From positions 1 through 37,867 of the forward strand of contig JAHJFD010000052.1 of NCBI GenBank assembly GCA_018825145.1: 37,867 nt of DNA, written 5' to 3'. The translations under genes were made by a program, and so were the position numbers. The stretch comes from Patescibacteria group bacterium. Lineage in GTDB: Bacteria; Patescibacteriota; Gracilibacteria; UM-FILTER-43-11. Below the pieces are notes generated by a model, which had not been told where the DNA came from, searched no databases, and was given only the letters and a program-made list of their open reading frames with translations. Positions 307-35,854 of this stretch are shown here, one piece after another; the stretch's first letter is position 1; the number at the start of each line of letters is the position of its first letter.

Positions 307-1794
307 ATGTATATAACCGCCTCAAATCTCTACGATTACCTCCAATGCAAACACCGCATTTGGCGGGATAAACATGGCCCGCTAGACGAACGGAATGACG
401 ACCCGAATCCTTTTATTGAGTTATTGTGGGAAAAAGGTTTGAACCATGAAAGAGAAATAATCGCCAACATTGGTGAGTATTTGCTGATAGAGGGTAAGAC
501 CTGGGAAGAGAAATTCAAAAATACCCAAAAGGCAATGAACGAAGGAATTGAACTGATTTATCAGGGGGTAATTATAGCCGGTGAGCTTTTGGGTATTCCC
601 GATCTGCTTCGCAAAACACCCACTGGTTATGTCGCGGTCGATATTAAATCCGGGCGGGGTAGTGAATGTGTTGATGAGGAAGGCGATGAAGGCACCATGA
701 AAAAGCATTACGCGATTCAGTTATGCCTGTATACCGATGTTTTAATCAGATTGGGTCATCAGTCAGAAAGAAGGGCTTATATTCTGGATATAAACAGCGA
801 AGAGCATGAATACGACCTTACTGAAAAATTTGGTCCTAAAAGTCCTTCAGCGTGGGAACTTTACGAAACTACCAGGGAAGAGGTAAAAGCCCTGATTCTG
901 AATATCAGACAGAACAAGCCAGCCCTTTCCTCAATCTGCGGATTATGCCGTTGGTACGCAAGCTGTAAGAAATGGTGTGAAGCTAATCATGATCTGAGCA
1001 TACTTTTCAATCTTGGAATGAGCAAAAGAGATGTTCTTACTGAAGACCTGGAAATTTCCAAGGTCGAAGAGCTCGCGAATATTGATGTTACAAAGGCAAT
1101 GGCAGATAAAAAGCAGTTTGGAATTCTGAAAGGAATTGCTGAGAAAACCCTTACACAGTTTCAACATCGCGCCACTATCAAGACTCCTGAACTAAAAGAA
1201 GATATTTATTTTCCAAAGGTATCAAAGGAACTCTTTTTTGATATCGAAGACGACCCGACACAGGAATTCGTGTATCTGCATGGTGTTTATGAGCGAAGCA
1301 GTGATGGTAAAAAGGAATATATCCCATTTGTGGCAAAAGAACATACTAAAACAGCAGAAAAAGAAGCCTGGGCCGGGTTCTGGGCCTATATTAATTCATT
1401 ACCAAAGAATGAGTTCGCGGTGTATTACTATTCACCTCATGAAAAGACCATTTACAGGAAACTTCGGGAACTGTATCCGGATGTAATCAGCCAAACAGAA
1501 TTGGAAGCATTTTTTGACAATCCCAATGTGATTGATCTGTATAACGATGTGGTAAGAGGTAAAACAGAATGGCCACTCAGTAGCTATGGAGTCAAAGCGA
1601 TTGCGACTTATTTAGGTTTTAAATGGCGGGATGAAACCCCGTCCGGCGCCCTCTCTATTAAGTGATACAACGACTATTTAACAACAAAAGATGAGAAAAT
1701 CCTCAATAGGATACTTGAGTATAATGAGGATGACTGTATTGCAACAATGGTAATTAAAGACAAAATTGACCAAATTGTCCGCACATACCGCTAA
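307..1794 (+). pseudogene. TM0106-family RecB/Cas4-like plus YprB (RNase H-fold) nuclease, interrupted by an in-frame TGA
   Basis: The ATG at 307 opens MYITASNLYDYLQCKHRIWR, typical of the N-terminal PD-(D/E)XK-like half of TM0106-family nucleases; a Cys cluster (CGLCRWYASCKKWC, about residues 230-245) resembles the Cas4/RecB iron-sulfur segment. The C-terminal half has YprB/DEDD features: FFDIEDDP, then VIDLYNDVVRG and WPLSSYGVKAIATYLGF. The frame meets TGA at 1663-1665 (codon 453) but stays open and family-like beyond it: YNDYLTTKDEKILNRILEYN, then EDDCIATMVIKD, to TAA at 1792-1794. The TGA sits where relatives usually have Trp (SI-W-Y). A product ending there would lack the last acidic motif (EDD). 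TGA is a normal stop elsewhere in the window, so this is a recent nonsense mutation, a sequencing error or readthrough. The start at 307 is one base after the upstream gene, with a purine-rich stretch before it. Confidence 0.8.
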
Positions 1795-11463: not shown

Positions 11464-12474
11464 TTATTGGATGGTGAAGATTGGATTATTAACCTGACCT
11501 TTACCCCGAATGGTGATGGTGGTCGGGTCAATCCCAATCCTTACCTGCCCAACGGCGACTGGGTCGACCTGAATGTGGAGCTCCATCGGACTGCCATCGT
11601 TCTTGTAGCAGTTCAGGCTGTTGAAGTCCGCGGCTCCTGCCGTGAGAGGCAGGCTGTAGGTGGTGAACGAACCGCCTGCAGGAACCTCGCACAGAATCAG
11701 AACGGCTTCGAGAGCCGTTGTGGTCTGGGGTGCTGTGTAGCCCCCGGACAGGTTGTTCACCAGTCTTAGCATCTGGGTGAGATGGTTGCCGGGGTTCGTC
11801 CCGTACACCTTGAAGATGACGGCATCCACAGCACCAACTCCCGATCCCAGATTTTGACTCGGCGATGCGCTGAACACCACCGCGTAGATGTCCGGCAGGT
11901 TGCCCATGGCCGTCACCACGTCCTGCGCGAAGCAGGTGGTGGTCGGGTCGGCCGGATGGAAAAATGGTGTGACCGGAACGAGCTCCAGCCAGACCGCCTT
12001 CTCGATCGCCGAGAACGCGGGATGAGCCAAAGCCACATCCCCAAACGTTGCCACGACTGGGTCCGAGTAGCCCTGGAGCTTCTCGGGTACCTGCCCGATG
12101 ACGGCCGAGATGAACTCTTCCCGAGGGACGGGATTGCTCGTGCCGCAGCCCGAAGCGAACAAGTTCGCGCAGGCTTCGCCGATCAGGGCCGCGGCCGCGT
12201 TGTAGGTGATGTCTGGGCAGGGATTGCCCCCGCCCTGACCACCCTGGCCACCGCCGCCGGTGTTGCCGGTGTTGCCGGTGCCACCCTGGCCAGCGTTTCC
12301 GCCGGTGTTGCCGGTGCCACCTGTACCGGCCGAACCGCCGGTGTTGCCACCTGTACCGGCTGTGCCACCGGAACCGCCTGCGCCAGCTACACCTCCGTCA
12401 GGGGAAGCGGCGAACTGCTCACCACAGCCCCAAAGGGCCAGGGCGAGACACATCAAGAAAATCATTCTCTTCAT
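11464..12474 (-). CDS. Gly-rich lipoprotein of unknown function, GC-rich and possibly acquired
   Basis: The N-terminus MKRMIFLMCLALALWGCGEQ carries a lipobox with Cys17, so the protein is probably lipidated and exported. Residues 27-87 are a Gly/Thr/Asn linker built from GGTGNTGG-like units. The rest (about 88-336) is a globular, Cys-containing domain (CPDITYNAAAALIGEAC, WLELVPVTPFFHPADP) that I do not recognise. Gly-rich lipoproteins of this style are familiar from Myxococcota. The gene differs from its neighbours: clearly GC-rich codons, a real SD (GGAGAG just before the ATG), its own terminator and a structured leader. This points to horizontal acquisition or a separately regulated accessory gene; function is not inferred. 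Confidence 0.75.
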   Translation of the reverse strand: MKRMIFLMCLALALWGCGEQFAASPDGGVAGAGGSGGTAGTGGNTGGSAGTGGTGNTGGNAGQGGTGNTGNTGGGGQGGQGGGNPCPDITYNAAAALIGEACANLFASGCGTSNPVPREEFISAVIGQVPEKLQGYSDPVVATFGDVALAHPAFSAIEKAVWLELVPVTPFFHPADPTTTCFAQDVVTAMGNLPDIYAVVFSASPSQNLGSGVGAVDAVIFKVYGTNPGNHLTQMLRLVNNLSGGYTAPQTTTALEAVLILCEVPAGGSFTTYSLPLTAGAADFNSLNCYKNDGSPMELHIQVDPVAVGQVRIGIDPTTITIRGKGQVNNPIFTIQ

Positions 12475-12597
12475 CGGTCTCTCCGATCTTTAGCCCTCGA
12501 GGGGCATTATTTGAACTGGGGGAATCATTCCCCCTCTCATTCGCCGTCCTCCACCATGGAAGCCGGAGAATAGTAGAAAAGGATGTCCCAGTTCAAA
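12475..12597 (-). promoter_or_regulatory. Structured 5' leader of the Gly-rich lipoprotein gene
   Basis: On the transcript, an 11-bp inverted repeat pairs 12587-12597 with 12510-12520 (TTTGAACTGGG and its complement). A second perfect hairpin (GGGGG at 12518-12522 and CCCCC at 12530-12534) shares three G positions with the first, so the two cannot fully coexist. A short palindrome lies near 12493-12505 (GCCCTCGAGGGGC on the plus strand). Finally ATCGG/CCGAT encloses the SD (AGAGA loop) and the first two bases of the start codon. A possible promoter lies upstream (TTGACT complement near 12650, AT-rich -10 near 12630). Alternative structures ending at a masked SD suggest leader control; this is inference. 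Confidence 0.45.
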
Positions 12598-12700
12598 AAC
12601 CAAATGTCAAAGAACAGAGTGTATTATATTAAACTATTTTTTCTGCAAAAGTCAATTTTTTCCGCCGCAAAAAAGAACATGTGCTTTTCTGATTCATTCT

Positions 12701-13369: not shown

Positions 13370-13852
13370 CTAAATGTTTCCGAAAAACTTATCGATCAGC
13401 ACACCCACATAAAAGGAAATGATGACTACCGCTGTTGCGATCCCCCAATGTTCCAGAATGGCATGCACTTTGGATTCTTTGCGCCATTTCGCGATAAGAA
13501 TACTGATGCCCCCGAGTAATAACAGGGCCCACACGCAGCTGACATAAATGGCTGACGTAAGATCAAGCAGTATCACCGGCAAGGCAAAGGTCAGGGCGAT
13601 GATAAGTTTAGCGAAAAAAGTGGCAATCATGGATTCCCATATTTCGGGATGTTCGTTGTGTTCTGATGATTCCTCTGAAAGGTGCATACCAAAAGCATCA
13701 GACATGGCGTCCGCGATGGCAATGGTCAGTATGCCCCCCAAAACCGCCAGTTTTGAATGCGTACCAGAATAGAGCCCGACCATCAGCCCTAAAGTAGTGA
13801 CGATTCCTGAAGCCACCCCGAAGCTTAAGCCTTTGGCATATGATAGTTTCAT
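13370..13852 (-). CDS. Short VIT1/CCC1-family membrane protein (probable Fe2+/Mn2+ transporter)
   Basis: The 160-residue protein has an N-terminal segment typical of the VIT/CCC1 family, SFGVASGIVTTLGLMVGLYS then GILTIAIADAMSDAFGMHLS with acidic residues in the loop (EESSEHNEHPE) that could bind metal. About four to five membrane helices are visible. Eukaryotic relatives move Fe2+ or Mn2+ into vacuoles; bacterial forms are usually 220-240 residues, so this one is short and may act as a dimer. It is followed immediately by ung. The start ATG has no SD. Substrate is inferred from family only. Confidence 0.65.
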   Translation of the reverse strand: MKLSYAKGLSFGVASGIVTTLGLMVGLYSGTHSKLAVLGGILTIAIADAMSDAFGMHLSEESSEHNEHPEIWESMIATFFAKLIIALTFALPVILLDLTSAIYVSCVWALLLLGGISILIAKWRKESKVHAILEHWGIATAVVIISFYVGVLIDKFFGNI

Positions 13853-26745: not shown

Positions 26746-27348
26746 TCAGACCTGTGTTGCCGCAATAAATTCTTTTACTTCCTGATAGCGTTCGGCATCA
26801 ATTTTGTTATTTCGTTTCAGAATGTCGAGAAGTTCATTGATTCCTATTATACTGTGTAATTTATAGCCTTTTTCTTCGAGCTGTCGTCCCCCTCCCTGTT
26901 CCCGGTCAACGAGCACCAGGAAATCGGTAATTTTAAGTCCGGAGGCTTCGAATGGTTCGACGGTCTCGAACTTACTGCCGCCAGTAGTGATCAGATCGTC
27001 GATGACAAGAGCGGTGTCGCCTTCCTTAAAAACGCCTTCGATCTTTTTTTTCGTTCCGTAATCTTTAACTTCTTTTCTGGCATAAACCATGGGCCATTCC
27101 TGACTGATTGAAATTGCCGTGGCAATGGGCAAAGCCGTGTATGGAATGCCCGCGATCACATCAAACTTCAGGCCTTTGGCCATTTCGATCATAGCCTCAC
27201 TGATCAGCCTGAGCACTTTAGGATAAGAAATGAGCAGGCGTAAATCGATGTAAATGGGTGATTTTATGCCTGACTTGAGGGTAAATTCGCCAAATTTTAT
27301 GGCACCGATTTCATGCAGAGCCAGCGCAATTTCTTCTTTTTTAGACAT
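26746..27348 (-). CDS. pyrE: Orotate phosphoribosyltransferase
   Basis: Converts orotate and PRPP to OMP in pyrimidine synthesis. It has DLRLLISYPKVLRLISEAMI, VIAGIPYTALPIATAISI, VYARKEVKDYGTKKKIEGVF and the PRPP loop DTALVIDDLITTGGS. The length, 200 residues, is typical. First gene of a minus-strand run pyrE-nadC-transglutaminase-pabA-pabB-pabC that groups two PRPP enzymes with PABA synthesis. A -10-like TATACT lies about 30 bases before the ATG. Confidence 0.95.
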   Translation of the reverse strand: MSKKEEIALALHEIGAIKFGEFTLKSGIKSPIYIDLRLLISYPKVLRLISEAMIEMAKGLKFDVIAGIPYTALPIATAISISQEWPMVYARKEVKDYGTKKKIEGVFKEGDTALVIDDLITTGGSKFETVEPFEASGLKITDFLVLVDREQGGGRQLEEKGYKLHSIIGINELLDILKRNNKIDAERYQEVKEFIAATQV

Positions 27349-27389
27349 ATTTTTTGATTACGAATCGTATGCAAGTATAGCATAAACAA

Positions 27390-27437
27390 AAAACCGCCTG
27401 TCCACGCCCTTGCCGGACGGAATTAAATGACGGTTTT
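27390..27437 (-). terminator. Terminator after the Cys-rich gene
   Basis: AAAACCG (27390-27396) pairs with CGGTTTT (27431-27437), with an inner GTCC/GGAC stem. On the minus strand T6 follows; the plus strand is also T-rich afterwards. It separates the Cys-rich gene from pyrE. Confidence 0.6.
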
Positions 27438-27453
27438 CTGTCTTTTTTTGCTG

Positions 27454-27591
27454 CTACCAATTCATCTCATCTTCATTATCTTCCGCTACCGGCTCGTTGT
27501 CCGGTTCGAAGTCGCAATAACATTCACATTGTGGGCTGTCGCACTTCTCACAGATAGGGCAACTGTCACCACAAGAACACTCTTGCTGCAT
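27454..27591 (-). CDS. Cys-rich 45-residue protein, metallothionein-like
   Basis: The ATG at 27591 opens MQQECSCGDSCPICEKCDSP followed by QCECYCDFEPDN and an acidic tail ending EDEMNW, stop TAG at 27454-27456. Eight Cys fall within residues 5-26 in CxC, CxxC and CxCxC spacing, the pattern of small metallothioneins and thiolate metal clusters; the tail is strongly acidic. An in-frame TAG lies five codons upstream of the ATG, so the start is not in doubt. It has a terminator directly downstream. Likely role is binding or buffering Zn2+, Cu+ or Cd2+. It is not a known family that I can name. The other bases of 27349-27704 hold the terminator and the spacer before the channel gene. Confidence 0.7.
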   Translation of the reverse strand: MQQECSCGDSCPICEKCDSPQCECYCDFEPDNEPVAEDNEDEMNW

Positions 27592-27704
27592 AATGGTAGT
27601 TGTTAGCTAATGATTTAGTTCAATTATCATTTCTTTGCCCAAAAAAGCAATAGGAAATATTTGGCTTATCTAAGGCCTTAAATCGAACACAGTTAGCTTT
27701 TATT

Positions 27705-28544
27705 CTATTTTTGTGAACTGGTCTTTTTTACACCTTCTTCCAGTTCGGCTACATTAACTTCAGTGCCAATTTCGGAACCAAAAAGTGACGTCATCATATA
27801 TTTGCCGATAACGTTCATGAGTAAGCCGAACAGAGCCAGGCCGCATAACATGGCGAAACCCGCGGTAATCCGCCCCAATGTTGTTACCGGATACATGTCG
27901 CCGTAACCAACGGTCGTGATCGTGACGATACACCACCACATAGCTTTTGGTATAGAAGTGAAGGCAGTGCCTTCCACTCCTTTTTCACAATAAAATTCCA
28001 GAGTGCTGAAGATTGTCAGGACGGAAAACAGGGCAATGAAATAGATCGTCAAATCCATTTTGAGTGTTTCGAACTTGTTCGTGGTTGTTTCTCCTTCAGT
28101 CGTCTTGATAACGTGTTTGGCAAGTTTAAGGAGCCTCAGCATTCTCATCAGGCGGAGGAAACGGAGAATGCGGAGAACGCGGAGGACTTTGATGGCGCGA
28201 AAGTCACCTATGCTGAAGTAAGAGGGCGCGATGGCCAGGAAGTCGATAGCACCCCAGGGACCAAAGATATACTTGGTTTTAACAGGAGCCACATAGATAT
28301 TAGCCGCGTATTCAATAGTGAAGATGGTCACCACCACCCATTCTGAAATATCAAATAAACTTTGGTAGGTCGTATAAATGGTATCCACCGAAGACAGCAT
28401 TATGGAAATGATGGAGAAAAAAATCAGGAAAACAATAATGTCGTTTACCACTCTATAAACTGACGAGTGCTCGTTCCCAAAAGCTTCATGGATCCAGTAG
28501 TCGGTACGGGCCCACAAATAGAGAGGTTTTTCTTTTGATGACAT
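27705..28544 (-). CDS. Voltage-gated potassium channel (Kv/KvAP-like, 6-TM)
   Basis: Six membrane helices with a pore loop carrying the K+ selectivity filter ITTVGYGDMYP. S4 is exceptional: starting at FRAIKVLRVLRILRFLRLMR the positive residues recur at every third position ten times. An acidic residue in S2/S3 (FTIEYAANIY, IDFLAIAP) can pair with them. The C-terminus is short and charged with no RCK domain. ATG 28544 (MSSKEKPLYL) is preferred over 28571 because a TATAAT (28574-28579, complement) lies two bases before the latter. It is divergent from trkA. Confidence 0.92.
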   Translation of the reverse strand: MSSKEKPLYLWARTDYWIHEAFGNEHSSVYRVVNDIIVFLIFFSIISIMLSSVDTIYTTYQSLFDISEWVVVTIFTIEYAANIYVAPVKTKYIFGPWGAIDFLAIAPSYFSIGDFRAIKVLRVLRILRFLRLMRMLRLLKLAKHVIKTTEGETTTNKFETLKMDLTIYFIALFSVLTIFSTLEFYCEKGVEGTAFTSIPKAMWWCIVTITTVGYGDMYPVTTLGRITAGFAMLCGLALFGLLMNVIGKYMMTSLFGSEIGTEVNVAELEEGVKKTSSQK

Positions 28545-28573
28545 AATTTTGGTTTTTAATTTGCCTTGCATAC

Positions 28574-28612: not shown

Positions 28613-29269
28613 ATGAAAATCATTATTGTCGGCGGCGGTGAAAAAGGGCTTGCTTTGGCAAATATGCTGGCCAATGAGCATCAGGTCACGCTTATTGAAC
28701 AAGATGAAGCGCGCGCCAAAGTGATTGCCTCAAAAACCCAGGTGCTTGTCCTTCAGGGTGACGGAGGCGATATTGCCATTCTTCGACAGGCTAATATAGG
28801 CGAGGCGGATTATGTGGTGACCACGGCTGACGATAAGACCAATCTGGTCGTCTGTGAAATCGCCAAGAATGAGAAAGTGCCCCATATAGTAGCCCTTGTG
28901 AATGAATCAAAGAATGAGGAGCTTTTCAGCAAACTTGAAATTTCCAATTTGGTATTTGTGGTGGGCACGATTGTTTCAGCCATTCAGCGCATTATTGTTC
29001 AGAAAGGAACGGAAGATATCATCAGTCAGCTGGGACTTGGAGAAATGCAGGTGGCTAAGATGACCGTTACGGAAGGCTGTAAAGCCGAGGGAGCCGGGGC
29101 TGATATTAATAATGCCAAGATTCTTGCTATATACAGGGAAGGAAAATTAATCACCGACACGGTAAAAGAAAAACTGCTCAGAAATGACACTGTTTTATTC
29201 GCGGTGGCTCCAAAAGATTTGGAGGAACTCAATAAATTTTTTACTTCTGATGAGAATACTTCTGCGTAA
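28613..29269 (+). CDS. trkA: Trk/Ktr-type K+ uptake regulatory subunit (RCK protein)
   Basis: A single-unit RCK protein of 218 residues. The N-terminal Rossmann domain (MKIIIVGGGEKGLALANML) binds NAD(H)/ATP, with GDGGDIAILRQANIGEADYV; the C-terminal TrkA-C domain spans about 135-212. Size and single RCK unit match KtrA more than the duplicated E. coli TrkA. It gates the partner channel-like transporter encoded next: trkH starts at 29250, overlapping this gene by 20 bases. An A-rich sequence without SD precedes the ATG. Confidence 0.92.
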   Translation: MKIIIVGGGEKGLALANMLANEHQVTLIEQDEARAKVIASKTQVLVLQGDGGDIAILRQANIGEADYVVTTADDKTNLVVCEIAKNEKVPHIVALVNESKNEELFSKLEISNLVFVVGTIVSAIQRIIVQKGTEDIISQLGLGEMQVAKMTVTEGCKAEGAGADINNAKILAIYREGKLITDTVKEKLLRNDTVLFAVAPKDLEELNKFFTSDENTSA

Positions 29270-30662
29270 TCTCGGTTATTTGCTCGTCATATCATCTTTT
29301 TTCCGGCTGATACCGATTGTCGCGGGTCTGATTTACGGAGAAGATATTCGTGGCTTTCTGTTTACTTTCGGCTTTTCTTTAGTGCTGGGAGTTGTCCTGG
29401 CCCTTTTCAGCCGTCCGAAAGAAAACAATAAAACTATGACCCTGACTCAGGGACTTATTCTGAGCGCTTTGGCTTTTATTGTACTCCCCGCCATCAGCAT
29501 GATCACCTATTTGCCCAGCATGAATTATGATTACATCAATGCCTATTTTGAAGCTATTTCCGGCTTTACCACTACCGGACTGACTGTTTATGGTTCACTG
29601 GATGAACTGCCCAAAAGCCTGCTTTTGTGGCGAGCTGAAACGCAGTGGATGGGGGGAATAGGTATTATTATCATTTTCCTTTTTCTTTTTAGCGGGCGAC
29701 GAAAAAGCCAGCAGAAAGCGGTGGACCTTGAAGAAGCCAGCGAAGCTTCGATGGCTCTTTATCAGGCGCAGGGTTTTGGACAAAAACTGGAAGGCGGCCT
29801 AAGGCACACGCTGGCAGTCGTCATGGCTATTTATATAGGATATACCTTGTTTGGCGTTCTGTTACTATTGCTAACAGGTATGCCAATTTACGATGCTATC
29901 GCTATGTCCTTCACCGCTCTTTCGACAGGTGGTTTTAGCGTGCATAACACGTTTTATACCAATGGATGGCAGCTTTTTGTGCTGTCTGTAATCATGATTC
30001 TGGGCTCCATTTCATTCGTTGTGCATTACAAAATGCTTGAGGGGAAGTGGAAGGAATTCTTTTTCAGTTTTGAAAAGAATGTGTTCTTTGCCATTCTGAT
30101 TCTTTGCGGATTGCTGACCCTAACAGTTGCCACGGATATAAAAATCGCTTTTTTTGAATTGGTCTCCGCCTTCACGACCACCGGTTATGGAGTGAGTCAT
30201 TATGCCCTTCTTCCGCCCCTTTTGATATTTGTGATGATGCTGGGCATGATTATGGGCGGCTCTTCAGCCAGTACGGCAGGCGGAATTAAGGTATTCAGAA
30301 TCTATTATCTGATGCGTGGGATCGGCTGGCACATCAAAAAACTTTCTAATCCGCCAAGTGCCGTGATTCCGCTTAACATTCATGGCGAAGAAACTGATGA
30401 AAAAGATCTGAGTAACATTGCCATATTTGTCATCGCTTATTTCCTTTCCCTGCTTATCGGAATCATTATTTTCCTTTTATTTGGCTTTGGTTTTTTTGAT
30501 TCAGCCTTTCAGATGGTATCCGCGCTTGGCACGGTAGGACTTCAGTCGGTGGAAGTGGGCCTGATCCATCCTTTCCTCAAAATTATTCTGATCATTGCCA
30601 TGCTTTTTGGACGCCTTGAGATCTTCCCCATTCTGATCCTGATCAGGCGAATATTTAAGTAA
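29250..30662 (+). CDS. trkH: Trk/Ktr-type K+ transporter membrane subunit
   Basis: A 470-residue protein with four M1-P-M2 repeats. The pore glycines are visible: ISGFTTTGLTVYG, FTALSTGGFSVHN, VSAFTTTGYGVSHY and VSALGTVGLQSVEVG. Relatives import K+, driven by membrane potential or Na+. The correct start is the ATG at 29250 (MRILLRNLGYLL): the frame is open upstream but that part overlaps trkA. The cotransporter gene starts six bases after its stop, so trkA-trkH-cotransporter form one operon. Confidence 0.93.
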   Translation: MRILLRNLGYLLVISSFFRLIPIVAGLIYGEDIRGFLFTFGFSLVLGVVLALFSRPKENNKTMTLTQGLILSALAFIVLPAISMITYLPSMNYDYINAYFEAISGFTTTGLTVYGSLDELPKSLLLWRAETQWMGGIGIIIIFLFLFSGRRKSQQKAVDLEEASEASMALYQAQGFGQKLEGGLRHTLAVVMAIYIGYTLFGVLLLLLTGMPIYDAIAMSFTALSTGGFSVHNTFYTNGWQLFVLSVIMILGSISFVVHYKMLEGKWKEFFFSFEKNVFFAILILCGLLTLTVATDIKIAFFELVSAFTTTGYGVSHYALLPPLLIFVMMLGMIMGGSSASTAGGIKVFRIYYLMRGIGWHIKKLSNPPSAVIPLNIHGEETDEKDLSNIAIFVIAYFLSLLIGIIIFLLFGFGFFDSAFQMVSALGTVGLQSVEVGLIHPFLKIILIIAMLFGRLEIFPILILIRRIFK

Positions 30663-30668
30663 AGTCTC

Positions 30669-32882
30669 ATGAAAAAGAAAAAAGAAATTATAAAGAAACC
30701 CAGAAAATTCGGCGCCTTTTTGGGGGTCTTTGTGCCGACTTTTTTAAGTATCATCGGCGTGATCCTGTATTTAAGGTTAGGTTACATCGTCGGTTCAGCC
30801 GGGCTTCCGCTGACGATTCTGATTATTCTGCTGGCCGCTTCCACGACTTTTTCCACCGGCCTGGCCCTGAGCTCGCTGACTTCCACTATAAGACTTGGGC
30901 CTGGGGGTGCTTATTCGCTGGTTTCCAAAACGCTGGGGCTGGAAATCGGAGGCAGTGTGGGTATTCCTTTGGCATTCGCCCAGATTTTTTCGGTCGTTTT
31001 CTATGTTTTTGGTTTTTCTGAGGCCTGGCTTTATATTTTCCCGACTCATCCTCCGATTGCCGTGATTTACGGTGTTCTGCTTATTATTTTTTTGTTGTCC
31101 GCCTTTAAAATCACGGCAGCACTCACTGCGCAGGCGGTGGTTTTCGGGCTCATTCTTCTTTCTCTGGTTTCGGTTTATTTTGGCGGTGGGCACTGGTGGA
31201 GTGAAGTATTTTCGGCGTCGCCGGCTGTAAGTCTGAACGGTGTTCCGTTCTGGGCGCTCTTTGCCCTTTTCTTTCCCGCGGTGACTGGTCTGATGGCGGG
31301 CATTGGCCTTTCCGGTGACCTGAGTGATCCAAAAAAACAAATCCCGCGGGGGGTGTTGTGGGCAATTGCCACCACAACTATTATTTACATTTTTACCGCT
31401 TTTTGGCTGTATCACGCGGCGTCAGCTCAGGAACTTGTGACTAATAGTTTAGTAATCGTGAAAACTTCCTTTTGGCCTCCAATTGTATTGACGGGTATAT
31501 TGGCTGCTACTTTTTCCAGCGCTCTGACTACCTTTGTAGCCGTTCCAAGGCTACTGCAGGCCCTTGGTGAAACAACCATTCTTCCTTTCAGTTCCTTTTT
31601 CGTGAAAAAATCTGAAACTGATGAGCCCCGAAACGCGACCGTTTTTGTCACCATCCTTATTCTGGCCGGTCTGGCGCTTGGGACTTTAAATACCATCGCG
31701 CCGCTTCTGACCATGTTCTTCCTGATTACTTATTCTATCATCAACCTGGCGGTTTTTGCCGAAATGGCGCTGGGCCTGGTAAGCTTTCGTCCCACTTTAA
31801 GGATCTCAAAGTTCATACCGCTTTACGGATTCTTGAGTTCGCTTATTTTTATGTTTCTGATCAGTCCCATCGCGGGACTGATTGCGCTCTTTTTTCTGTT
31901 CGGGGTTTATATCTGGCTCATCAAGAAAAAACTACCCCAAAAAGAAGGCGACGTGCGGTCGGGCCTTTTTGTCAGTCTGGCGGAATGGGCCGCCAAGAAA
32001 ATCATTAAATTGCCTGAATCGCGTAAACACACCTGGAAGCCAAGTTTTCTTGTTCCTGTAGTGATCACGCGGACTTTACTCGGCAATTTCCCGCTCATCA
32101 AGGCTATCGCTTTTCCTAAAGGGACCATGACTGTACTTGGGGTGAATCTTTTAAAGAAGGAGGGATCCGCGCCTGATTCTGCTGACCTGACGAAAGAGGA
32201 GATCGAGGAAGAGCTTAAAGAACTTCCCGACTTAGTGAAGAAGTTCGGGGAAGAGGGAATTTTTACTTCATCTTCGATCATTGACGTGGACGATTATGCC
32301 GAGGGTGTTTGTATATCACTCGAAGCTATCGGCAGCCAGGTGTTTCATCCTAATATTCTTTTTCTTCCTTTCAAACCTGACCGATTGCCAAAGACTTCAC
32401 TCAAAAGTATTTTTGAGACGGCTGAAGCTCATCAGGTGGGCGTGATGCTTTTTGACCGTGATGAGGATATAGGACTTGGTTCAGAGCAGGATATCCATGT
32501 GTGGCTGCCAAAGGAGGCAATGGATCGGGATTTTTATGATGACCGTATTTTTGACCTTGCCATGCTGACCGCTTATAAACTCTATCGAAACTGGCATGGC
32601 AAAATCACGTTATGGATGTGCGTTCCCGAAGATCAAAGAGACAAAGCCCATTACTATTTAAAGAAGTTGATTTACGAAGGGCGCTTCCCGCTCAATACCG
32701 AGATTCAGATTTCCGATGAAGGCTTCAAGCATACCATTTCAAAAGCTCCTCAGGGAGATATTCATATCCTGCCGGTCACAGCTCAGGAAGAGCCGATTGA
32801 TTTCATTCTGGATATTTCAAAAAGCCAGAACAAATCTTTTCTGTTTGTTTCAGATTCATCTAAAGAAGATGTTTTGGCCTGA
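30669..32882 (+). CDS. Cation/chloride cotransporter (SLC12/APC superfamily)-like permease
   Basis: A 737-residue protein. Twelve-helix APC core at about 15-425: FGAFLGVFVPTFLSIIGVIL, YLRLGYIVGSAGLPLTI, LGPGGAYSLVSKTLGLEIGG and IPLAFAQIFSVVFYVFGFSE are close to the cation-chloride cotransporters (NKCC/KCC), not only to amino-acid permeases. The soluble C-terminal half (about 450-737) has WLPKEAMDRDFYDDR and MLTAYKLYRNWHGKITLWM, like the SLC12 C-terminal domain. It probably moves K+ and/or Na+ with Cl-. Location straight after trkA-trkH supports K+ handling. An amino-acid substrate is not excluded. Confidence 0.85.
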   Translation: MKKKKEIIKKPRKFGAFLGVFVPTFLSIIGVILYLRLGYIVGSAGLPLTILIILLAASTTFSTGLALSSLTSTIRLGPGGAYSLVSKTLGLEIGGSVGIPLAFAQIFSVVFYVFGFSEAWLYIFPTHPPIAVIYGVLLIIFLLSAFKITAALTAQAVVFGLILLSLVSVYFGGGHWWSEVFSASPAVSLNGVPFWALFALFFPAVTGLMAGIGLSGDLSDPKKQIPRGVLWAIATTTIIYIFTAFWLYHAASAQELVTNSLVIVKTSFWPPIVLTGILAATFSSALTTFVAVPRLLQALGETTILPFSSFFVKKSETDEPRNATVFVTILILAGLALGTLNTIAPLLTMFFLITYSIINLAVFAEMALGLVSFRPTLRISKFIPLYGFLSSLIFMFLISPIAGLIALFFLFGVYIWLIKKKLPQKEGDVRSGLFVSLAEWAAKKIIKLPESRKHTWKPSFLVPVVITRTLLGNFPLIKAIAFPKGTMTVLGVNLLKKEGSAPDSADLTKEEIEEELKELPDLVKKFGEEGIFTSSSIIDVDDYAEGVCISLEAIGSQVFHPNILFLPFKPDRLPKTSLKSIFETAEAHQVGVMLFDRDEDIGLGSEQDIHVWLPKEAMDRDFYDDRIFDLAMLTAYKLYRNWHGKITLWMCVPEDQRDKAHYYLKKLIYEGRFPLNTEIQISDEGFKHTISKAPQGDIHILPVTAQEEPIDFILDISKSQNKSFLFVSDSSKEDVLA

Positions 32883-34595: not shown

Positions 34596-35414
34596 TTAGT
34601 TTGCAGTTTCGTGGATTTCATTATGGCCCTCGCCGTTGATGCTATGGTCATGACCTGCCTCGGCGAAAGGAATAAAAAGCATGCCAGCCATAAGCGCGAC
34701 GCCAATCAAAAAGCTGACCAGCTGAATAATTGAATTTTTGACAGCCACATCTTTGTGAAGCTCGGGGATCAAGTCCGAGTTGGCGATATAAAGGAAACCG
34801 CCAATAGTGATAGGAATGATGACTTCAGCTGTCGTTTCCGCGTCGATACCAATGGCAAGCACCACCAGCACCCCCAAAACCGCGGCGAGAGCTGAAAGAA
34901 AATTCAGAAAAAGCGCTTTTTTTACCTTCAGACCCGCATGCAGAAGGACGCCAAAATCACCCATCTCCTGCGGTATTTCATGAAAGACGACGGCTACCGT
35001 GGTGGCGATTCCCACGGGAATACTAAAAAGAAAACTGCCCGCTATAAGAACGCCGTCAATAAAGTTATGCACCCCGTCCCCCACCAGGTTCATGACAGCC
35101 AATGAGTGAGTGTGATCCTGGGTTCCGGCCAAATGGCAGTGACGCCAGTGAACAATTTTTTCGAGGACAAAAAATATCAGAATACCGGCAATGATATTAA
35201 GCCCAAGTGCGGCTGAAAAACCACGTTCCGAGATCAGTTCGGGCAGCAGATGCAGAAAAACATCTCCCAGCAAAGTACCCGCCGCGAAAGAAACCATAAA
35301 AAGCAGAAAGCCTTTTAAATAATGTTTTTTGAAGACAATTGTCAGAATACCGAGAAAAGAAGTAAAACTGACAATCAGAACGCTGATAAGGGAGTAAATC
35401 CAGATTTGAGTCAT
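34596..35414 (-). CDS. ZIP-family metal (zinc) transporter
   Basis: A 272-residue membrane protein with about eight helices. The metal path motifs are in helix 4 (NLVGDGVHNFIDGVLIAGS) and helix 5 (VFHEIPQEMGDFGVLLHAG), as in GufA/ZupT-like ZIP transporters. A His-rich loop (HWRHCHLAGTQDHTHS) and a His-rich C-terminus (HDHSINGEGHNEIHE) add metal sites. It lies 20 bases after the Fur-family regulator gene and is surely co-transcribed. Likely imports Zn2+, perhaps with Mn2+ or Fe2+. Confidence 0.9.
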   Translation of the reverse strand: MTQIWIYSLISVLIVSFTSFLGILTIVFKKHYLKGFLLFMVSFAAGTLLGDVFLHLLPELISERGFSAALGLNIIAGILIFFVLEKIVHWRHCHLAGTQDHTHSLAVMNLVGDGVHNFIDGVLIAGSFLFSIPVGIATTVAVVFHEIPQEMGDFGVLLHAGLKVKKALFLNFLSALAAVLGVLVVLAIGIDAETTAEVIIPITIGGFLYIANSDLIPELHKDVAVKNSIIQLVSFLIGVALMAGMLFIPFAEAGHDHSINGEGHNEIHETAN

Positions 35415-35434: not shown

Positions 35435-35854
35435 TTAAGAACACTGCTGACAAGTACCTGAAACTTCAGTTATATGCTTCAGGTTTTTGAGGGGCAGATT
35501 TTTGGGAATTATTTTTTTTAAGAAACAGGGGTCTTTGTGCAGGAATTCACTGGTTCGCCCGCATTTGTCGCATACCGCGAAATAATGACAACCGCGTTTT
35601 AGTTCAAAATCACAGCGAACATAACCTTCTTTGGTATGAATACGGTGGGCAATACCCAGTTCCTCAAAAACATCGAGAACTCTGTAAATTGTTACGACAT
35701 TGGAGCGTATATTTTTTGGAATATGTTCTTCAATGTCGTAAGCGGATAACGGAATTTCGGCCTTTGAGAGCACTTCAAGAACGGCCACGCGAGGACCTGT
35801 GATTTTGTAGCCTTTAGCTCTGAGAAGCCGGATTGAATCTTCCAGGAAGTTCAT
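35435..35854 (-). CDS. Fur-family regulator, probably zinc-responsive (Zur-like)
   Basis: A 139-residue winged-helix protein. The DNA-binding part has KGYKITGPRVAVLEVLSKAE and SNVVTIYRVLDVFEELGIAH; the dimerisation part has CHYFAVCDKCGRTSEFLHKD (Cys95, Cys98) and a terminal TCQQC (Cys135, Cys138), the structural zinc site. The gene precedes the ZIP transporter in one operon, which supports Zur rather than Fur or PerR. It has a strong promoter with a spacer palindrome that could bind the regulator itself. Confidence 0.85.
   Translation of the reverse strand: MNFLEDSIRLLRAKGYKITGPRVAVLEVLSKAEIPLSAYDIEEHIPKNIRSNVVTIYRVLDVFEELGIAHRIHTKEGYVRCDFELKRGCHYFAVCDKCGRTSEFLHKDPCFLKKIIPKNLPLKNLKHITEVSGTCQQCS

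Follow-up and report, generated by a model that had tools for sequence, protein, structure and literature searches.

Does the short Cys-rich ORF at positions 27454–27591 of the DNA shown above represent a gene, and if so, what might its product do? The whole stretch of DNA analyzed, a contig of 37,867 nucleotides from a Patescibacteria group bacterium, is referred to here as the window. A first-pass annotation, made from the sequence alone, described an overlooked 45-residue protein with eight Cys in 22 residues and an acidic tail at this place. The length, the eight Cys and the acidic tail were confirmed, and the ORF was found to lie on the minus strand, which the annotation had left unstated. 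The carriers of the gene are ultra-small, minimal and mostly uncultured cells (Peregrinibacteria).

Layout of the Cys-rich ORF

The protein encoded at 27454–27591 on the minus strand, MQQECSCGDSCPICEKCDSPQCECYCDFEPDNEPVAEDNEDEMNW, has a size of 5.2 kDa and contains 18% Cys. Its eight Cys residues (C5–C26) are spaced CxCGxxCxxCxxCx4CxCxC. The protein contains no His, its tail is acidic and its net charge is about −13. The features of the locus are as follows:

27622..27652, minus strand: conserved promoter, with a −35-like TTGCTT at 27650–27645 and a −10-like GATAAT at 27628–27623
27592..27621, minus strand: 5′ leader, 30 nt from the promoter to the ATG, without a Shine-Dalgarno sequence
27609–27607, minus strand: in-frame TAG that limits the ORF start, with five codons between the TAG and the ATG
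27454..27591, minus strand: CDS of 45 aa, consisting of an eight-Cys core (residues 5–26), an acidic tail and a C-terminal Trp
27385..27442, minus strand: intrinsic terminator hairpin with a T run, downstream of the stop

The TAG five codons before the ATG and the terminator after the stop had both been pointed out in the annotation and were both found, the latter with a folding energy of −25.1 kcal/mol (z = −4.5) and a T run at its end. Genes for an ion channel (Ion_trans; 27705–28571) and an orotate-phosphoribosyltransferase-like protein (Pribosyltran; 26746–27348) flank the ORF on the same strand. The plus-strand reading of 27454–27591 was rejected, as it is a hydrophobic frame with zero cysteines.

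Shine-Dalgarno-like sequences were observed before only 5 of the 31 window genes checked, whose leaders are AT-rich. Their lack before the Cys gene is therefore normal here, and translation initiation in the window seems to be mostly independent of such sequences.

Coding status and selection

A second-order Markov model derived from the window was used to simulate 150 windows, none of which had a stop-free stretch holding eight Cys in 22 residues, the maximum being seven Cys, which was reached once. One further stretch with eight Cys in 22 residues occurs in the window itself, at 12210–12630 on the plus strand, and was dismissed as a low-complexity, out-of-frame reading. For three close pairs of homologues, the dN/dS values were 0.057, 0.078, and 0.079. 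The window gene differs from its homologue in the sister species (G002) at 39 sites, 26 of them third codon positions; dN is 0.18, the synonymous sites are saturated, and for five of the eight Cys a synonymous codon is used. Thus, the Cys ORF is a genuine coding gene under purifying selection. The short length of the ORF and its lack of a Shine-Dalgarno sequence would suit a chance ORF that is not a gene, but dN/dS values of 0.06–0.08, Cys residues that are invariant in 26 members, and a promoter and a terminator of its own speak against such an origin, which is refuted because of the conservation and to which we assign practically no probability. The first-pass annotation was to be abandoned if close relatives lacked homologues with the same Cys spacing or if the substitutions were not coding-like. 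Given that 25 homologues have identical Cys spacing and that the dN/dS values above reveal the synonymous-rate bias expected of coding sequence, it survived on both counts.

Distribution and sequence conservation

Clear homologues were found by searching 58 related genomes. The Cys gene is present in 14 of the 18 genomes of the window's family and in 10 others of the same class, and was not found in 4 of the 18 family genomes or in most of the class. Profile searches yielded matches in 25 of 353 class genomes, including a weak, truncated match in G022, while a phylum-wide sample of 380 genomes yielded five matches, all from the same class as the window. The named carrier records are those of Candidatus Peregrinibacteria or other Patescibacteria, and two genomes (G003 and G013) carry two copies each. 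An alignment of 26 members from seven families (A2) shows no variation at M1, Gly8 or any of the eight Cys, and almost none at Glu23. The members are about 5 kDa, with a Cys share of 18–20% and both CxC and CxxC motifs.

No match for the Cys protein was found in Pfam, NCBIfam, PHROGs or PDB, a Pfam scan of 13 members returned no family at E ≤ 1, and an Rfam search also returned no match. Viral contigs, phages and plasmids contained no relative of the Cys protein, and a mobile or viral origin was rejected on these grounds. A match from Dehalococcoidia (L059), which spans just 16 query residues, was judged to be due to chance. Judging by these searches, the Cys protein is a new lineage-restricted family, confined to one class of Patescibacteria. 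It adds a family absent from all the libraries searched and gives the Candidate Phyla Radiation a metallothionein-like candidate; a full-text literature search for metallothionein and Candidate Phyla Radiation together found no paper.

The tails of the 26 members consist of about 36–76% Asp/Glu. The last residue is W, Y or F in 18 of the members, 13 of which have W, and many tails contain further Tyr/Phe. An acidic tail with a conserved terminal aromatic residue would be more like a docking motif or a degradation signal than like anything in known metallothioneins.

Promoter and expression unit

The element before the Cys gene reads as a sigma-70-type promoter. Its consensus is CTATTG[CA]TTTTT-N-AAAAA-N-GATAATT. 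The gap from TATTG to GATAAT measures exactly 19 nt in members from several families, and the element ends 26–30 nt before the ATG at loci without an intervening ORF. In the window genome (1.16 Mb) the element occurs once, at 27622–27652. When 353 genomes were searched with a promoter model (R1), 17 sites scored E < 1e-6, and 16 of these are Cys-gene loci. As all 16 were training sequences, they are not independent support, and the informative part of this search is the near-absence of the promoter away from Cys genes. In the four family genomes without the Cys gene, the best R1 matches reached only E = 0.016–0.05. The sole outsider (G009:C61:15367–15421; L134 about 1300–1535, minus strand) places the promoter before a 55-aa ORF that begins with MTNQKVETLSGL, and a Lys-rich 21-aa ORF is divergent to it.

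TAA-rich motifs preceding the ATG had raised the possibility of a leaderless transcript, which was rejected once the conserved −35/−10 pair came to light about 30 nt further upstream. In several relatives a hairpin with a T run is also found upstream of the promoter. It looks like the terminator of preceding tandem genes, because it is absent in divergent arrangements. Its own promoter and terminator would make the Cys gene an autonomous expression unit.

Gene neighborhood and metal genes

The first-pass annotation had also drawn attention to a Fur/Zur regulator, a ZIP importer and a VIT-like transporter in the same window. These genes are real (Fur-family, 35435–35854; ZIP, 34596–35414; VIT1-like, 13370–13852), but they are 7–14 kb distant from the Cys gene, and neighborhoods of the Cys gene are conserved only among close relatives. 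Sharing the window is therefore no evidence of a link, no conserved link of the Cys gene to any of the three was seen, and this part of the annotation is not supported.

Metal genes adjoin 4 of about 25 Cys-gene loci, two of which are in one genus. They encode CsoR, a DsbD-like/HMA/cupredoxin protein and a Cu-ATPase in G004, a P1B ATPase with an HMBD domain in G015 of the same genus, CsoR and HMA-MauE in G016, and ArsR and ArsP in G299. CsoR and an above-cutoff Cu-ATPase are both absent from the window genome (G000) and from three other carriers (G002, G003, and G014), and a strict copper linkage was rejected accordingly. Beside the ion channel gene of the window, TrkA-like, TrkH-like and cation-chloride cotransporter genes stand in a row at 28613–32882; together with the ion channel gene they appear to be a potassium/ion transport cluster.

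Lys-rich ORFs upstream of the Cys gene

At nine loci from two families, the Cys gene is preceded by a Lys-rich, histone-H1-tail-like ORF. The ORF is intact at seven of them (G002, G003, G014, G013, G009, G016, and G312), where it encodes 24–54 aa with KKxAKK-type repeats. It is placed between the promoter and the Cys gene, with its ATG about 30–35 nt past the promoter element and its stop 18–39 nt before the ATG of the Cys gene. The Lys ORF of G008 is cut by the contig end, and that of G010 (G010:C43; L084:8750–8860, minus strand) has an apparent frameshift, which points to an assembly error in A runs or to a gene in decay. The charges of the two products are opposite, +11 to +30 for the Lys peptide and −12 to −15 for the Cys protein. 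On another contig of G002, a second Lys ORF (G002:C34; L182:494–754) has 18 nt downstream of it a gene for a 25-aa mini form of the Cys protein, MNCECRCYEIELEEDSCGEENLNQW, in which CECxC, the acidic tail and the terminal Trp are all that is retained. Beside more than half of the Cys-gene loci, including that of the window and those of most carriers outside the window's family, the Lys ORF is absent. The window genome contains a free-standing 30-aa Lys-rich peptide, MPTKKKVVKKKVAKKKVAKKKPAKKVSKKR, on contig C52 (G000:C52; L173:840–932).

Possible functions of the Cys protein

Coding status, Cys invariance, purifying selection, the conserved promoter, the terminator, the pairing with the Lys gene and tail conservation are all observed. 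On this basis we consider it moderately probable that the locus, a stand-alone gene, encodes a cytosolic metal-thiolate protein that acts in the manner of a metallothionein and presumably binds metal. A small soft-metal cluster, perhaps of 2–3 Zn/Cd or several Cu(I) ions, would be bound by the eight invariant Cys and may let the protein buffer or detoxify soft metals. The acidic tail, if disordered, would keep the protein soluble, and its terminal aromatic residue might present the protein to a partner or a protease. Expression would be from the gene's own promoter/terminator unit, paired in many species with the Lys-rich H1-like peptide. A plain metal sink would not explain the conserved terminal Trp or the Lys-rich neighbor. 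AlphaFold2 predicted no structural elements (pLDDT 50) from a 10-row alignment, which would fit metal-dependent folding, yet it is no evidence for such folding, as a shallow alignment of this kind also yields low confidence.

The resemblance to metallothioneins that the first-pass annotation had proposed holds for a coding gene with invariant Cys and for the density and motifs of these Cys and does not extend to a PF02069 match; any specific metal role is putative. Several broad marks of metallothioneins are present, namely a size of <10 kDa, richness in Cys and invariant CxC/CxxC spacings, while few or no aromatic residues, another such mark, is contradicted by the C-terminal W/F/Y of 18/26 members. 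Bacterial metallothioneins often carry His ligands, whereas the window protein has none; in SmtA, a Cys/His cluster of four metals includes a zinc-finger fold. Like SmtA/BmtA (PF02069), the Cys protein is about 5 kDa, contains CxC and CxxC, is presumably cytosolic and is encoded by a separately transcribed small gene. It differs from them in the order of its Cys (CxCGxxCxxCxxCx4CxCxC), in its long acidic tail with an aromatic end and in its confinement to one class of Patescibacteria. Membership in PF02069 was rejected, as a profile search of the 18 family genomes found no match while the Synechococcus control was detected. There is a precedent in MymT, a 4.9-kDa Cu metallothionein that was likewise found as a small unannotated ORF and whose tiny Cys-rich product is alike by description (PMC7558416). 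MymT is tied to copper resistance, whereas no strict copper link is seen here and the window genome is without CsoR and an above-cutoff Cu-ATPase.

The exact Cys spacing, with zero loss in 26 members, would also be consistent with a small structural zinc protein with two Zn(Cys)4 sites. The conserved acidic tail with its terminal aromatic residue resembles a docking motif and could, in such a protein, dock on a machine such as RNA polymerase or the ribosome, making it a regulator and not a store. Neither zinc-finger and zinc-ribbon models nor PDB sequences match, however, few core residues beyond Cys and Gly are conserved, and the gene was not found in 4/18 family genomes and most of the class, so that this function is improbable. 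Still less credence is given to an Fe-S or redox protein, either ferredoxin-like or a thiol buffer, to which CxxCxxCx4C and the peroxiredoxin-like and methionine sulfoxide reductase genes close to two Cys-gene copies would point. Although 2[4Fe-4S] ferredoxins are also small acidic proteins with eight Cys, the Cys protein has these Cys in half the length and without CxxCxxCxxxCP repeats, matches no ferredoxin model, and seems too crowded with Cys to house two [4Fe-4S] clusters.

The Lys-rich ORF suggests another function, in which the Cys protein would be an acidic, metal- or redox-gated counter-ion or chaperone that binds the strongly basic H1-like peptide (+11 to +32) and controls its attachment to DNA, RNA or polyphosphate, with the Cys cluster as the sensor and the terminal Trp as part of the contact with the Lys peptide. 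The Lys ORF 18–39 nt upstream at the seven intact loci, along with the frameshifted and contig-cut copies, the opposite charges, and the mini form 18 nt after the second Lys ORF of G002 all argue for such a partnership. Against it, over half of the Cys genes, that of the window among them, lack an adjacent Lys ORF, and the eight-Cys core is constrained with or without the Lys gene; we regard it as unlikely. A two-part Patescibacteria module, in which a metal- or redox-sensing, strongly acidic Cys8 protein would be produced along with a free H1-tail-like peptide and its metal loading would decide whether that peptide is sequestered from nucleic acid or polyphosphate, is viewed as quite doubtful. 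In species like that of the window, the Lys peptide of such a module may be encoded elsewhere in the genome (G000:C52). The metallothionein-like function is preferred here. The invariant Cys core, the terminal aromatic residue, the dedicated promoter and the Lys partner lend themselves to precise and cheap tests of metal handling in these minimal cells, and also to a test of the link between metal state and a histone-tail-like peptide. No description of the acidic tail with its terminal aromatic, the dedicated promoter or the Lys-rich operon partner was found in the literature searched.

The KKxAKK repeats of the Lys peptide resemble the tails of histone H1-like proteins, such as chlamydial Hc2 and Pseudomonas AlgP. 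Unlike these proteins, the Lys peptide is free-standing, is 24–54 aa long, has no significant Pfam match (for PF07382, HC2 histone H1-like, the best E is 0.82 and the score of 10 bits is below the cut-off of 40), and shares its operon with an acidic, Cys-rich protein. Lys-rich tails were also observed in Gly/Arg-rich proteins shared by the family (L172, L174, L178, and L181), which have a CxxC...CxxC zinc-ribbon-like motif of the form MHxATCxxCG...CEVPFKPTG..KPVxCxxCF.
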